From an uncultured Clostridia bacterium (GTDB taxonomy: Bacteria; Bacillota; Clostridia; Christensenellales; Borkfalkiaceae): DNA of 64,000 nt. A program made the position numbers and the translations under genes. The first letter of the stretch is position 1. Each line of letters starts with the position of its first letter. The notes under the pieces were generated by a model. That model made no database searches. It was not told the DNA's origin and was given only the letters and a program-made list of their open reading frames with translations. The stretch lies in contig CANRAD010000006.1 of NCBI GenBank assembly GCA_947628505.1, positions 1 through 64,000 on the forward strand, in the 5' to 3' direction. Below are positions 14,878 through 64,000 of this stretch, piece by piece.

Positions 14878-14954
14878 GTACCCGTAGCTCAGTTGGATAG
14901 AGCAATAGCCTCCGACGCTATGTGCCGTTGGTTCGAATCCAATCGGGTACGCCA
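14878..14954 (+). tRNA. tRNA-Arg (anticodon CCG), CCA encoded
   Basis: Acceptor GTACCCG/CGGGTAC, D-arm GCTCAGTTGGATAGAGC, anticodon arm ATAGC-CTCCGAC-GCTAT, T-arm GTTGG-TTCGAAT-CCAAT, 3' GCCA. Confidence 0.96.
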
Positions 14955-15011: not shown

Positions 15012-15785
15012 ATGACATATAATAAATTATTGGAATTTGCCGGGCCGAGAATAAGGCAATTTCTGAAAGACAAGCAGTGCGAAGGCGCATTCGGGTGGAC
15101 GGATTTCAACGCCGAATGTTATAAGAAAATGTACGAGGAAAATTCGTATGACGACGTGCGCACGGTCAAGATGCTTAAAGAGGAAATACCCGAGCTGAGA
15201 GAGGTATGCAAGCGGTGCGGGCAATTTTATGTCCGGCCTCGTAACAAGAGTGTGGTTGTATACGACCTAATGTTCGGAAAATTGCTCGAAGACGTCATCA
15301 TAGATTTTCTCAACGCCGAATTCAGAATACACGCCGTCCACGGGGATATTACCGACAAAAGATATCCCGACTGCATGATACTCGGGCCGGATAAGGGAAT
15401 AGTGGCGTATTTCGAAGTCAAATATCACGGCGCGCCCTTTATAAACGCCATACATAAAATAAACAGATACTGTTACGAGGGCAGCGCCACGCTCGACTTC
15501 AAAAAAGTTGTCAGGCAGCTTGAAATAATAGATTCCGACATAGAGCGGCCGGTATTTTATCTGCATTGGATAGATTATCCGTGTCTTAAAGGCATCTTCT
15601 TTGAAACTTCCGAGCAGGTTAAGGACTATATATACGGCAACGGCGAGATGTTCGTAAGGCAAAAAAGAGAGGGGGACGAGGCAAAAACGCCGCAGTCGGT
15701 TTACCTTGAAAAGATTTATTCACCCCTTCTTACGATGGGAACTTTCGACGAGTTTATAAATATGATCAGAAATATGAGAGGTTGA
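15012..15785 (+). CDS. Putative PD-(D/E)XK restriction-type endonuclease
   Basis: E...YPDCMILGPDKGIVAYFEVK pattern (PD...ExK); operonic with TGT-like gene and next to DNA methyltransferases. Confidence 0.65.
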   Translation: MTYNKLLEFAGPRIRQFLKDKQCEGAFGWTDFNAECYKKMYEENSYDDVRTVKMLKEEIPELREVCKRCGQFYVRPRNKSVVVYDLMFGKLLEDVIIDFLNAEFRIHAVHGDITDKRYPDCMILGPDKGIVAYFEVKYHGAPFINAIHKINRYCYEGSATLDFKKVVRQLEIIDSDIERPVFYLHWIDYPCLKGIFFETSEQVKDYIYGNGEMFVRQKREGDEAKTPQSVYLEKIYSPLLTMGTFDEFINMIRNMRG

Positions 15786-15788
15786 TTT

Positions 15789-17168
15789 ATGGATAACCTT
15801 CGGTTACGCGGCAAGACGTTGCAGACGCCGTCTTTTTTCCAGATATATAACTACGGAGGCGGCTTCGGGCATAAAACGCGGGAAATGGTATACGCCGACT
15901 TGACGGGCGACACTCCCGCGCTGTTCAATTATTATTACATAAGCAACAAATTTCCGCATATGTTCGAAAGCTCCGAGTTCGACAATCTCGGCAAATATGC
16001 GGATATAGGCGAAGCGTTGACGGCCATCCGCGATCGTCTGGCGCGGGAAAATATATATTCGGGCTGCAAATATTCCCCGTTCGATTTCGGGAGCAAGGTA
16101 ATCTTTCTCGACTCGGGCGCGGCAAACATAGTAAACTATCTCGCCGAAAAAAACGGTTACGACGAGCAGGCGTTCAACGAAGAGCTCTGCTCGGCGATGA
16201 GGGACTATTACGATTTTGCGGACAGATACAAGTTCGACGTCGTCGCGGGTTTCGATTTGGGCGGCAAATATACTTTCAAGGGCGGCGAGCTTAAAAACGC
16301 CCCTTTAAACTGTTTTCTGAACCGGCTCGACGTGGACGCGACGAACAAAATGCTCTTTGACAAAACCTTGGATTATCTCAAAGAGAAAAGAGAATATTAT
16401 CCCGCCGTATTGGCCGTAGTGCACGGCAGAACGCCCGCCGATTACGCCGATTACGCGCGATATATCGTCAGGGAAGAGGAAGAAAAGGGATACAGGTTCA
16501 AAGGTTTTACCCTCGGCGGAGTGGCGAGTTGGAAGGCGCTCGACGCCTCGTGGTTCGAGGGAGGTTTCGACGACCGTTTGAGCAAGAGAACGGCGGCGCC
16601 GGCGCGGGCCGCAACGGCGGTGCGAAAAGTTGCGGGGGACAGACCTATACACGTTCTCGGCGGCGGGGGATACGAGAACATAGCGCTCAATTATTTCTGC
16701 GGAGCGACTTCTTTCGACGTGGCCACGCTTTCGAGGAGAGTGGGAGACGGCAACGGATTGTCCGCCGATTTCATGTTCTCGAAAGAGCCGTTGCCGAGAG
16801 AGGCGAAGTTCGGCAAGGCGTTCGTGGGCGGATATAACTCAGACTGCTCTTTAAGGAGAGAAGAAGCGGGATATGTTGCGATAGACAGGATCCCCGACGA
16901 TTTCGAGCTGTGCGGTTGCGCCGCGTGCAAGAGAGTAAATTCATTTTACGACATAAAAAAACTGTACTCCGAAAAGAGCAATGACGACGAGGCGTTTTAC
17001 TACGCATGTCAGCTTATGAACGCTCACGCCGTGTTGCAGCATCGGAAATTGTGCGAACTTCTTTCGGGATATGACGATATGGATACGTTCCGGAAAGAAA
17101 ACCCGACGGCTCTGAACATAGCTCTCAACAGGATATACAATAAAATAAAAGAAAAAGACGGCGAATAA
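15789..17168 (+). CDS. TGT-superfamily protein (tRNA-guanine transglycosylase/DpdA-like)
   Basis: TPSFF near the N-terminus, FLDSGAANI (DSG), VVHG..GFTLGGVA, HVLGGGGYENI...GATSFDVATLSRRVGDGNG, zinc ligands CGCAACKR...NAHAVLQH. Confidence 0.8.
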   Translation: MDNLRLRGKTLQTPSFFQIYNYGGGFGHKTREMVYADLTGDTPALFNYYYISNKFPHMFESSEFDNLGKYADIGEALTAIRDRLARENIYSGCKYSPFDFGSKVIFLDSGAANIVNYLAEKNGYDEQAFNEELCSAMRDYYDFADRYKFDVVAGFDLGGKYTFKGGELKNAPLNCFLNRLDVDATNKMLFDKTLDYLKEKREYYPAVLAVVHGRTPADYADYARYIVREEEEKGYRFKGFTLGGVASWKALDASWFEGGFDDRLSKRTAAPARAATAVRKVAGDRPIHVLGGGGYENIALNYFCGATSFDVATLSRRVGDGNGLSADFMFSKEPLPREAKFGKAFVGGYNSDCSLRREEAGYVAIDRIPDDFELCGCAACKRVNSFYDIKKLYSEKSNDDEAFYYACQLMNAHAVLQHRKLCELLSGYDDMDTFRKENPTALNIALNRIYNKIKEKDGE

Positions 17169-17180
17169 AACGCCGTCTTT

Positions 17181-17960
17181 TTAAATTTCGAGTTTCGCCT
17201 CGTTGCGCAGACGATGAAGTATTTCCCTTTCGTATTCGCCGTCTATTTCGAAGCCGACCGCTTTTCTGCCGAGTTTGAGCGCGGCCACCGCCGTAGTGCC
17301 GCTTCCCATAAAGGGATCGAGCACCAGATCTCCCGGTTGCGTCGACATCAGCACTATTCTCTCTATCATTTCGAGAGGGTAGACGGTGGGATGCGTCAAA
17401 CCGAGCGATTTTTTCGTCATGTTGTTCACGCGGTTGAAATACCATACGTCGGTGGGATTACGCCCCGGCCCGCCTTCGAGCCGCTTGTCGTTCTTTGTGA
17501 GATACGGCAAGCGTATTTCGTCGAGATTGAAAACGTAATCGTCGAGATTTTTCACCGCCCACAGAATATTTTCGTATCTTCCCGAAAGACGGTTCACGCA
17601 GTTTTGCATATTGTTGAAAGTCCAGACTATTATGTTTCTTATGTAGAACCCGGCGTCTTTGAGTATCTTGTATCCGATATAGGGCAGAGGCAGAATTTCC
17701 CTGTCCGCGCCGTAGGGAATGGGGGAGAGATTGAGGAAAAAACTGCCGTTCGGCTTCAATGCCTCGTAAACACGCCCGGAGACTTCGGAGATGAGATCTT
17801 CCCATTCGGGAAGGGGGAGCTTGTCCTTGTATTTGCCGTAGGGCTTTCCTATGTTGTACGGAGGCGAGGTGATGGCGGCCGCCACCGAACCGCGTTCGAC
17901 GCCGCCGAGAAGTCGGCGGCAATCGCCTATATCTATGTAAACGTTATCGCTTTTTATCAT
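17181..17960 (-). CDS. Beta-class DNA methyltransferase (N4-cytosine or N6-adenine)
   Basis: TSPPYNIG before DPFMGSGTTAVAA; start MIKSDNVYIDIGD overlaps upstream MTase stop. Confidence 0.9.
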   Translation of the reverse strand: MIKSDNVYIDIGDCRRLLGGVERGSVAAAITSPPYNIGKPYGKYKDKLPLPEWEDLISEVSGRVYEALKPNGSFFLNLSPIPYGADREILPLPYIGYKILKDAGFYIRNIIVWTFNNMQNCVNRLSGRYENILWAVKNLDDYVFNLDEIRLPYLTKNDKRLEGGPGRNPTDVWYFNRVNNMTKKSLGLTHPTVYPLEMIERIVLMSTQPGDLVLDPFMGSGTTAVAALKLGRKAVGFEIDGEYEREILHRLRNEAKLEI

Positions 17961-18741
17961 CTTCGGGCGCTCCTTGTCCGGAAATTCTGGCATTGGCCAT
18001 TTCAACGTATTCGGGCACTATCTCGTAGCCTATGTATCGGCGGCCGAGCCGCTTTGCAACCGCGCCCGTAGTGCCGCTACCCATAAAGGGATCGAGCACC
18101 GTGTCGCCCTTGTCGGAGGCGGCGAGGACGATGCGCTCTACCAATTTTTCGGGATATTGGGCGGGATGCCCCGTTCTCTCCAAAAAATTGCCGGATATCA
18201 TGGGGATTTTCCACACGTCGCTCGGGTTTTTCATCTGGGATTTATATCTGTCCGGGCGGTAGTTGAGCGCGGGGATCTTTACGGCGTCGAGATTGAACTT
18301 ATAGTTCGTTGCATCTTTTGTAAACCAAAAGACGAATTCGTAACGGGGAGCAAATCTCGTGTTCGTGGAACCGCCCCAATCGAAATTCCATATTATTATA
18401 TTTTTGAGAAACATGTCGGGAAAATAGTCGCATATCCAGAACGGCGGCAAAATGCGCTTTCCGTCGTAACGGCTCTTTATGTTTATCCATATGGAGCCGT
18501 CGTCCGTCAGCGCTCTCCGACATTCCGAAAACACCGCGCCGAGCATGCGCCTGTATTCTTCTTCCGGCAGATTGTCGGCATATTTTACGCCCTTGCTCTC
18601 AATCTTTCTTCCCTCGCGCGTCCTGTTGCCGTAAACGTTGTTTATGTTGTAAGGAGGAGAAGTAACCACAAGGTTTATCGATTTGTCTTCGAGTTCGTGC
18701 ATTTTTTCGCTCGAATGCATATATATAATGTCCTTTTCCAT
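17944..18741 (-). CDS. Beta-class DNA methyltransferase, second of tandem pair
   Basis: TSPPYNINNVYG ... DPFMGSGTTGAVA; SD AAAGGTGG before MEKDIIYM. Confidence 0.9.
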   Translation of the reverse strand: MEKDIIYMHSSEKMHELEDKSINLVVTSPPYNINNVYGNRTREGRKIESKGVKYADNLPEEEYRRMLGAVFSECRRALTDDGSIWINIKSRYDGKRILPPFWICDYFPDMFLKNIIIWNFDWGGSTNTRFAPRYEFVFWFTKDATNYKFNLDAVKIPALNYRPDRYKSQMKNPSDVWKIPMISGNFLERTGHPAQYPEKLVERIVLAASDKGDTVLDPFMGSGTTGAVAKRLGRRYIGYEIVPEYVEMANARISGQGAPEDDKKR

Positions 18742-18751
18742 GCGCCCACCT

Positions 18752-18952
18752 TTAAGTACGTACAATTTCCACAACGTCGCCGAGCTCGCAATTCAAGGCA
18801 ACGCATATCTTTACGAGCGATTCCAGCGGAACGTATTGCCCCTTGCCGAGTTTCGCTATCGTATTGGAGGTTACCCCCGCCAGACTTATGAGTTGCGTTC
18901 GTTTCAGCCCGCGGTCGATAAGCAGTTTCCATAACCCGTTGTAATTTAACAT
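18752..18952 (-). CDS. XRE-family HTH regulator (C-protein-like)
   Basis: HTH LKRTQLISLAGVTSNTIAKLGKGQYVPLESLVKICVAL; SD AAGGTGG; first gene of MTase operon. Confidence 0.85.
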   Translation of the reverse strand: MLNYNGLWKLLIDRGLKRTQLISLAGVTSNTIAKLGKGQYVPLESLVKICVALNCELGDVVEIVRT

Positions 18953-18973: not shown

Positions 18974-19012
18974 ATTATACAATATTTCATTGAATATGTC
19001 AATAAAATATTG
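18974..19012 (-). promoter_or_regulatory. Consensus promoter plus near-perfect 33-bp palindromic operator for the XRE-MTase operon
   Basis: Minus strand TTGACA-17-TATAAT; CAATATTTCATTGA(18980-18993)-ATATG-TCAATAAAATATTG(18999-19012), 13/14 arm match. Confidence 0.8.
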
Positions 19013-61997: not shown

Positions 61998-62028
61998 ATA
62001 AAAAGCGCCTTTTAAAAGGTGCTTTTTG
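61998..62028 (+). terminator. Terminator
   Basis: AAAAAGCGCCTTT-TA-AAAGGTGCTTTTT. Confidence 0.8.
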
Positions 62029-62138
62029 TATAACTATGTAACATTTTGTTAGTTCAATTCGTCTAAATATTTAATTGCATAAGCAATTTTGTGCAATCAA
62101 ATATATTTAAGAAATGTGCAAAAGAGGGATGATGAACT

Positions 62139-64000
62139 ATGATGAAAAACGAAAAAAATATATATGTAAACAATACTAAAAAGTTATGGAAAGAAATTAA
62201 AAAACGTGCAAATTTTGAGGATAGTGATTATGACAAGACATTACTCAAAGACTTAAAAAATAATCTTAATATTGATGAAAATGGGGAATTTGAAACGGAA
62301 ATTGAATCAATTCAGATAGAAACATTTCTTGACGCACTGCTTTCTGCCGTTGAACCATTTTCGTTGATGATGTCCGACCTTCTTGAACTTTTTGAGCGTG
62401 TAGGCGCACAAAAAGGAGATAATAATCTACAGATCGAAATTGATTTCGGCAAGCTGAAAAACAAATTCCGTTTTGATATAAATAATTTCAGACAGAGCGT
62501 TGAAAAGTTTGAAAAAACTTATAACGCCCGTATACGTGAAAATAAGATTAAAAATCCTTTTAAAATGTCGGATATATTTGGATATAGAGTTTATTCAGAG
62601 AATGAATTTATTTCAAAGGGATTTGATAAAATTGCCGAATGGATTAGATTTTATAATGACGAAAAATGGGTTTACTGGTTTCCGCGTCAGCCATACAGCG
62701 GCATTAAAAAGCTTGATGAGCTGATCCGTATCTTCTGGGAGCTTATTTCACACACGTATTTTCGTATTGGAAAGGCATGTAATTTTGAAGGTAGTAGGAG
62801 GCAGGGGGTCGGCAGATTATTGAATAAAATTAATTCTGATGGTATAACAGATTCAATGCTGTGTGCAGAAAGTGATTGTATCATTCGCAGTATGGTCATT
62901 GGAATAACGCAAAAAATAATAGAAATAAAGTTGCCGCAATTTGAAGCAAAAATGGAGGCGGAAGAATTAACGCAGAAAATCAAAAGCTATTTAAATTCTT
63001 TAGATATACAATATTATTCTGTAAAGCAAAAAAAAGAATTGATTTTTGATTTGTTTAATTTGCCGGTATGGAATCATCGGTATGAATTGTATTCGGCGTG
63101 GGTGTTTACGCTTATAGTAAAAGCATTTGGGGATTGTAAACTTGATTTTCATTTAAAAGACGGAGTGCTTTCGTTTTCCTTTGGCGGCTCACATCTTGCA
63201 ACCTGTAAATCAACATTCCCCGAGCTTGAAATTTATGCCGAACTAAAAACTAAGGCGATTGCAAATTTGATAAGTAAAAAGCGAAAGGATAACATACAGC
63301 CTGATTACAGTATTGCATTTAATCCTGTGAACGAGCCAAACAATTCAGTTGCGGTAATTGAATGTAAGCAGTACAAAAAAAGCAGTGTATCCAATTTTTC
63401 AGAGGCGGTTATTGATTATGCAAATAATAGACCGGACGCAAAAATTTTTCTCGTTAATTACGGTAATATTTCAAAAAGAGTAAATAGCCGAATTTGTAAA
63501 CAAGTTTCAAACGGAAGATATAATTTAGTCGAATATGTCAAACCTCAGAGTGCGGAGGCTAACGGCTTTGTTTATGAGCTGAAAGAGGTTATTGAAAAAT
63601 ATCTTAATAGATTTATTGCGCCTTGCACAATAAGTCTTAAATGGGGGAATAAACCATCGGATTTGGATCTTGAATTGTTATTCACAAACGATTCAAGTTC
63701 AATTAGAGTTAATTATCAAAATACCGGTAATCAAGCATCGGAGCCATATGCTGTGCTTGACCATGACGACAGGGATGGAAATGGAAACGAGACAATAACG
63801 GTGTATCAATGGGCAGAAGGTCAATACGATATATATGTAAATAATTATTCCGGTGAAAAAACGTTAGACGGGAATATTGAGTTGACTATTTCCTCAGCGA
63901 CGTTTGAAAAAGTTTTAAAACTTTGCCTGCCTTTTACCAAAGAATATTGCTGGCACGTGCTGAAAATTAATAACGGATTCATTGAAATGGTTGACAAAAT
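62139..64000 (+). CDS. Large accessory/defence-like protein, partial (runs off window): PD-(D/E)XK-like motif plus DUF2135-like beta domain
   Basis: Continuous frame of >620 codons from ATG 62139 (SD-like GAGGG at 62124-62128); PDYSIAFNPVNEPNNSVAVIECKQYKK; LKWGNKPSDLDLELLF...LDHDDRDGNGNETITVYQWAEGQYDIYVNNYSG. Not in the ORF track because it is open at the right edge. Confidence 0.75.
   Translation, partial: MMKNEKNIYVNNTKKLWKEIKKRANFEDSDYDKTLLKDLKNNLNIDENGEFETEIESIQIETFLDALLSAVEPFSLMMSDLLELFERVGAQKGDNNLQIEIDFGKLKNKFRFDINNFRQSVEKFEKTYNARIRENKIKNPFKMSDIFGYRVYSENEFISKGFDKIAEWIRFYNDEKWVYWFPRQPYSGIKKLDELIRIFWELISHTYFRIGKACNFEGSRRQGVGRLLNKINSDGITDSMLCAESDCIIRSMVIGITQKIIEIKLPQFEAKMEAEELTQKIKSYLNSLDIQYYSVKQKKELIFDLFNLPVWNHRYELYSAWVFTLIVKAFGDCKLDFHLKDGVLSFSFGGSHLATCKSTFPELEIYAELKTKAIANLISKKRKDNIQPDYSIAFNPVNEPNNSVAVIECKQYKKSSVSNFSEAVIDYANNRPDAKIFLVNYGNISKRVNSRICKQVSNGRYNLVEYVKPQSAEANGFVYELKEVIEKYLNRFIAPCTISLKWGNKPSDLDLELLFTNDSSSIRVNYQNTGNQASEPYAVLDHDDRDGNGNETITVYQWAEGQYDIYVNNYSGEKTLDGNIELTISSATFEKVLKLCLPFTKEYCWHVLKINNGFIEMVDK

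Follow-up and report, generated by a model that had tools for sequence, protein, structure and literature searches.

What is the substrate of a guanine transglycosylase (TGT) family protein that is encoded beside a nuclease and outside a queuosine context: DNA or tRNA? The question is raised by the open reading frame at positions 15789-17168 of a stretch of 64,000 nucleotides, the whole of which we refer to as the window. The original prediction had placed this gene outside a queuosine context, and in the genome of the window queA (C1:7041-8045) and a canonical tgt (C1:8737-9798) do lie on another contig. It had left the choice of substrate between DNA and tRNA; the restriction-modification (RM) context of the gene, together with a pocket that looks DpdA-like, inclines us towards DNA. 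TGT-family proteins recur in defence, in Dpd (PMC6884629, a paper that also treats phage DpdA), in type IV CBASS with its Cap9 and Cap10 (PMC11996544) and in BRC systems (PMC12839542); among the papers found, none is inside a simple type II RM cassette. A literature search outside REBASE and most subscription papers found no TGT in a two-methyltransferase RM cassette, which is weak evidence of novelty.

A TGT gene within a restriction-modification cassette

The features of the cassette and of its borders in the window are as follows.

14878-14954, plus strand: tRNA-Arg (CCG) gene, left border of the cassette site (ARAGORN)
15012-15785, plus strand: R1, PD-(D/E)XK nuclease of 257 aa, P119-D120 ... 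E135-V-K137 (motif, conservation, model)
15789-17168, plus strand: RM-associated TGT-family protein of 459 aa; D108, D156, H212, G243-G244, H288, D310; zinc residues C375/C377/C380/H413
17152-17182, no strand: inverted repeat with A and T tails, terminator-like, between the convergent operons
17181-17960, minus strand: M2, beta-class DNA methyltransferase with TSPPYN, start taken at MIKSDN (PF01555, E 1.2e-53; motif order)
17944-18741, minus strand: M1, beta-class DNA methyltransferase with TSPPYN, start taken at MEKDII (PF01555, E 5.3e-60)
18752-18952, minus strand: small HTH_26 regulator of 66 residues, ahead of M1-M2 (PF13443, E 9.2e-16)
18974-19002, minus strand: perfect match to a sigma-70-type promoter (TTGACA-17-TATAAT) for HTH-M1-M2

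The TGT open reading frame was confirmed as real, and starts 3 bp past the stop codon of the nuclease gene. The two genes are therefore joined operonically, as had been predicted, and are not fused into one protein. Taken alone, the TGT protein falls below the level of Pfam PF01702 and matches no Pfam family; single-sequence searches of Pfam, NCBIfam and the PDB returned no TGT match, and the PADLOC model 'TGT' matched it weakly (E 0.0055). Its identity is settled by its homologues and its fold, which match where the single sequence does not. Of the 10 aligned family members, 8 match PF01702 (best E 4.9e-6) and six match NCBIfam tgt_general (3.3e-6). When the AlphaFold model of the window protein (pLDDT 82, pTM 0.87) was compared with the PDB, the 50 best matches were all TGT structures (best E 1e-9). 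The motifs LDSGAANIV (residues 107-115) and FDVATLSRR (309-317) read exactly as the prediction had quoted them, and D108-S-G, D156, H212-G, G243-G244, H288, D310 and C375/C377/C380/H413 are invariant in the 10 aligned members. On this comparison the reading frame is a TGT-fold protein with an intact set of catalytic and zinc residues.

The upstream nuclease R1 was modelled with modest confidence (pLDDT 75), and its assignment is therefore carried by the motif and by the conservation of that motif; the best PDB matches of the model are nuclease D212, a Hje-type Holliday junction resolvase and the SPARDA nuclease. The copy of R1 in the same cassette of genome G028 is 60% identical. Converging on the R1-TGT pair are the two methyltransferase genes and the HTH gene, which the prediction had missed and which complete the RM cassette. 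M1 and M2 are about 36% identical, and in both TSPPYN stands ahead of a C-terminal DPFMGSGT (beta class). The nearest solved structures to M1 are CcrM and DNA cytosine-N4 methyltransferases, and the SPPY motif, typical of N4-cytosine methyltransferases, marks M1 and M2 as putative members of that class. The HTH_26 protein resembles an RM controller protein and has a homologue ahead of M1 in locus L004. No promoter match comparable to that of HTH-M1-M2 was found near the R1-TGT operon.

A DNA methyltransferase adjoining a nuclease is a feature of type II RM, and HTH, M1, M2 and R1 beside a tRNA-Arg gene have the anatomy of a type II-like RM cassette. Among known type II systems, those of the MboII, Bpu10I or BbvCI type combine two methyltransferases with a nuclease of one or two subunits. 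The cassette resembles these in its two methyltransferases, its PD-(D/E)XK nuclease, sometimes present as two paralogues, and its controller-like HTH protein; it differs from them in adding a TGT and in that its second nuclease paralogue, where there is one, has lost the catalytic residues.

Distribution and gene orders of the cassette

A scan of one genome per species recovered nine further TGT loci, L010 being on the same contig as L002. R1, M1, M2 and TGT are clustered in the window and in L002/L010, L004, L005, L008, L009, L011 and L012. In L007 the order is TGT-M1-R1-R2, with M2 about 7 kb away, and L006 stops at a contig edge, with M1, M2, R1 and R2 on another contig of its genome. At least three arrangements of the conserved cassette occur: R1-TGT convergent with M2-M1, TGT convergent with M1-M2-R1-R2, and M1-M2-R1-R2-TGT. 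R1 was found in all 10 TGT-carrying genomes and, among 94 genomes of the same genus as the window, only in the two that have TGT. Four loci carry beside R1 a second, shorter nuclease paralogue (R2) in which the catalytic Asp and the ExK motif are lost, and which may serve as a heterodimer partner of R1.

L004:9418-9948, L005:9420-9947, L007:10958-11539, L012:7555-8001: R2 paralogue, without PD-ExK residues

The system is rare (2 of 151 relatives). The order mnmA - small ORF - tRNA-Arg is preserved in several genomes of the genus, and in one of these, G055, mnmA and tRNA-Arg are followed by about 1 kb and two feoA genes, with no cassette. Since the same flanks exist without it, the cassette is an accessory insertion (island). 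Phages, plasmids and viral contigs scanned with the TGT or the nuclease gave no matches; within these sets, the TGT gene therefore belongs to neither phages nor plasmids. One further genome, G926, has M2 and R1 adjacent (L087:4449-6031, contig C45), and no TGT, M1 or R2 on that 104-kb contig. This pair is possibly an ancestral or reduced two-gene system. It is a single lead from one contig; if it holds, the core of the cassette would be M2-R1 and the added unit M1 with TGT.

Some matches were set aside. That in G338 (L003, E 9e-4) covers 86 residues at 21% identity and was taken as chance. The genome labels 'Bacteroides' (L012) and 'Scatousia' (L009) would imply a wide host range, which we mistrust: mis-binning is likely, because the canonical Tgt encoded in the L012 genome clusters with its counterparts from Clostridia MAGs and because L009 is 95% identical to L010 across 12 kb. 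In G477 the nuclease gene has a late frameshift and the TGT is intact; a sequencing or assembly error is possible there, and the case was given no weight.

Relationships and active-site pocket of the TGT family

We compared the family by profile, tree and alignment with its known relatives. In profile comparison (hhalign) Cap10 was closest (probability 94.6%, E 6.6e-8), against 48% for Tgt. The PADLOC TGT model matched the family at E 7e-7; this PADLOC family is here a CBASS one, its reference neighbours being a cyclase, a 2TM effector, QueC and an OGG-like protein. In the tree the RM-associated TGTs come together as a single clade (100/100) whose branch is long (2.63 changes per column), with neighbours not resolved. 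Clear clustering with bacterial Tgt, named beforehand as the result that would count against a separate substrate, was rejected by the AU test (p 0.0046; 0.0216 once the six most divergent rows were removed), and the family is thus separate from the tRNA-modifying Tgt. Grouping with Cap10 was not rejected (p 0.139; 0.23 in the reduced set), nor was grouping with DpdA (p 0.445; 0.377 in the reduced set), although the tree did not recover that grouping. The reduced tree joins the family, with low support (77/48), to Tgt and a Tgt-like outgroup, and a position just outside Tgt is possible. Because the Tgt grouping is rejected, those with Cap10 and DpdA are both compatible with the tests, and such a position is possible, we describe the family as a new deep subfamily and call it neither DpdA nor Cap10.

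The pocket alignment comprised the family, the canonical Tgt of the same genomes, Cap10, phage DpdA, bacterial DpdA and the DpdA2 of phage nt-1. In this alignment, which is uncertain in places, the family has DSGAF for the DSGGFQ of tRNA Tgt, His for the Gln of VQGG, IHxxG for RYLMGVG and SFDxAS for FDCVxPTR, in agreement with the prediction that its specificity residues are unlike those of bacterial Tgt. The His at the Gln203 position is found also in phage DpdA and DpdA2, and SFDxAS is as in a bacterial DpdA. Judged by these motifs, the pocket looks DpdA-like and not Tgt-like, and seems to differ from tRNA Tgt at the same places as the DNA enzymes. The histidine of IHxxG is aligned with His196 of 9g DpdA, a residue noted as conserved in DpdA (PMC6884629), and is not diagnostic by itself because DpdA2, Cap10 and three otherwise canonical Tgt sequences of the alignment share it.

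Each relative shares part of these features. With the DpdA and DpdA2 of phages and Dpd islands the family has in common DSGAF, IHxxG and, for phage DpdA and DpdA2, the His in the Gln203 slot; one bacterial DpdA has SFDSAS and CxCxxC as in the family, and Dpd islands likewise pair a TGT with restriction genes. Unlike DpdA systems, the cassette is without preQ0 synthesis genes, DpdB and DpdC, has two linked methyltransferases, and encodes a TGT of a separate deep clade. Cap10 (type IV CBASS, PDB 9ntn) shares the TGT core, DSGA/G, PIHxxG and the FD nucleophile segment, and also sits in a defence operon; its operons hold a cyclase, an effector and QueC, whereas the cassette has methyltransferases and a nuclease instead, and the zinc site and GG loop that the family keeps are missing from the Cap10 sequences compared. 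Bacterial Tgt of the queuosine pathway shares the fold, the catalytic Asp residues, the GG loop and the zinc site, but its DSGGFQ, VQGG and FDCVxPTR are replaced in the family, which is about 80 residues longer. In BRC systems with TGT and GNAT the TGT is likewise in a defence operon, with a proposed DNA-marking role, but their PglZ, DUF6079, STAND NTPase, DUF4007 and HerA/FtsK were not seen in the RM cassette (PMC12839542). The family is hence a deep branch with an intact active site, combining the zinc site of the tRNA enzyme with what looks like the pocket of a DNA enzyme, a combination relevant to the question of how TGTs came to move among RNA, DNA and protein.

Other TGT-family genes came to light. 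At L052 (G593:C55:29302-40186) a TIR domain is fused to a Cap10-like TGT, beside an OGG-like glycosylase and a QueC-like gene; this may be a variant of type IV CBASS, and no cyclase was identified among the neighbours checked, which were some of them only. At L049 (G495:C1:2223797-2234759) a type IV CBASS operon (effector, cyclase, TGT, QueC) adjoins BrxL and PglZ genes. A Monoglobus prophage-like plasmid (L039:5495-7391) has a ParB-N gene, a DpdA-like gene and a queuosine-precursor transporter in series. Three genomes of one genus (L034, L035, L036) encode a Tgt-like protein whose motifs are canonical but for LHALGIGHP in place of RYLMGVG and GFGGWP in place of GGLAVG.

Substrate and possible function

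The original prediction held that the TGT would need a precursor base made elsewhere. The cassette has no base-synthesis gene and no linked dpdB or dpdC, and no full-length QueC was found in the genome of the window. Canonical Tgt and QueA are present in all 10 TGT genomes and a clear QueC in only two (G476, G480), one of them a MAG in which the contig with the cassette was probably mis-binned. Salvage of preQ0 or preQ1 therefore seems to be the rule in most hosts, and a salvaged 7-deazaguanine is probably available to the host of the window; its use by this TGT is a supposition.

Our best explanation, to which we give an even chance, is that the protein is a DNA-directed guanine transglycosylase of a deep TGT subfamily, recruited into a conserved type II-like RM cassette. 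It is supported by the co-location of R1, M1, M2 and TGT in differing orders, by the presence of R1 wherever TGT is found, by the invariant catalytic residues, by the DpdA-like pocket and by the rejection of the Tgt grouping. The full set would comprise the HTH regulator, the SPPY methyltransferases M1 and M2, R1, sometimes a catalytically degenerate R2, and TGT. By the usual TGT chemistry, which we infer here to act on guanine in DNA, the nucleophile D310 would attack C1', guanine would leave, and another base, probably a salvaged 7-deazaguanine, would take its place, at or near the sequence recognised by M1, M2 and R1. Foreign DNA would be recognised by its missing methylation and cut by R1. 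Against this explanation, protection of the host could be achieved by M1 and M2 without further help; an enzyme with a protective role would not usually lie in the operon of R1, as TGT does in the window and its nearest kin; the closest profile, Cap10, binds a modified protein N-terminus and not DNA (PMC11996544); few hosts have a clear QueC, and the cassette has no base-synthesis gene; and R1 may not need TGT, since M2-R1 occurs without it on the G926 contig.

Within a DNA-directed role, the exchange could serve either side of restriction and modification. We tentatively and slightly favour the addition by TGT of a second mark to the host's own sites, because the DNA TGTs characterised so far, DpdA and DpdA2, all act in modification (PMC6884629) and because R1 may work without TGT. 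Damage by TGT to unmethylated foreign DNA is a more doubtful option, for which speak the place of TGT in the R1 operon, away from the methyltransferase promoter, the sufficiency of M1 and M2 for protection, and the joint absence of M1 and TGT from the G926 contig.

The latter can be worded as a rival account, on the whole unlikely, in which TGT attacks guanine at sites lacking M1 methylation and R1 or host enzymes turn the lesion (abasic site, incorrect base or covalent adduct) into a break, M2 being paired with R1 and M1 with TGT. In a gated form, which we rate as equally unlikely, M1 methylation would shield host guanine and TGT would excise or exchange foreign guanine beside M2-R1. The perfect promoter match of the methyltransferases only, the retention of M2 and R1 in G926, and the R2 paralogues, whose loss of PD-ExK residues might leave a heterodimer cutting one strand only, are in keeping with this account. 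G926 is a single genome read from one contig, however, and a His pocket like that of phage DpdA is suited to inserting a base; no TGT is known to act as a toxic glycosylase. Sequence-specific restriction glycosylases do exist, R.PabI being one cited in PMC12707154.

It is improbable that the TGT scaffold serves to recognise another protein of the cassette and not a nucleic acid. This would agree with the closeness of the Cap10 profile, Cap10 being an enzyme of the TGT family that has been reshaped for binding to a protein N-terminus with a 7-deazaguanine on it (PMC11996544). But the QueC-like (Cap9) gene and the cyclase that adjoin reference Cap10 genes are both missing from the cassette, the zinc site is kept, unlike in the Cap10 sequences of the alignment, and none of the R1, M1 and M2 proteins inspected has the Met-Gly start at which deazaguanylation occurs. 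For want of such starts and of QueC, deazaguanylation of a cassette protein is not favoured either.

Still less probable is a role in the modification of, or damage to, a tRNA, in which the enzyme might for instance be the toxic arm of the system when the cell is infected. The parent family acts on tRNA, the zinc site of tRNA Tgt is retained and a tRNA-Arg gene adjoins. Yet a canonical Tgt and a QueA are encoded separately in every host, FDCVxPTR and VQGG have given way to other motifs, and the partners are DNA enzymes. The adjacent tRNA-Arg was rejected as a substrate, being an insertion border that is retained in relatives free of the cassette. Finally, it is very improbable that TGT strips incoming DNA of its phage 7-deazaguanine and so opens it to cutting by R1: phages do protect their DNA with DpdA-made 7-deazaguanines (PMC6884629), and the Monoglobus plasmid has its DpdA-like gene beside a transporter, but the exchange of guanine for preQ1 by Tgt is taken as irreversible (PMC3660597), and nothing here supports the idea directly.

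A DNA-directed enzyme thus remains our preferred reading, and suggests that base swapping has been recruited into the otherwise ordinary restriction-modification system of a gut bacterium. With about five genes, the cassette is compact enough to be a tractable system for deciding whether the exchange of guanine in DNA marks self or destroys non-self.

Elsewhere in the window, GC content falls to 0.34 at 62001-64000, against a window average of 0.51. A long open frame that starts at 62139 and leaves the window contains an IECKQY stretch recalling PD-(D/E)XK nucleases, and is perhaps another defence or foreign gene.
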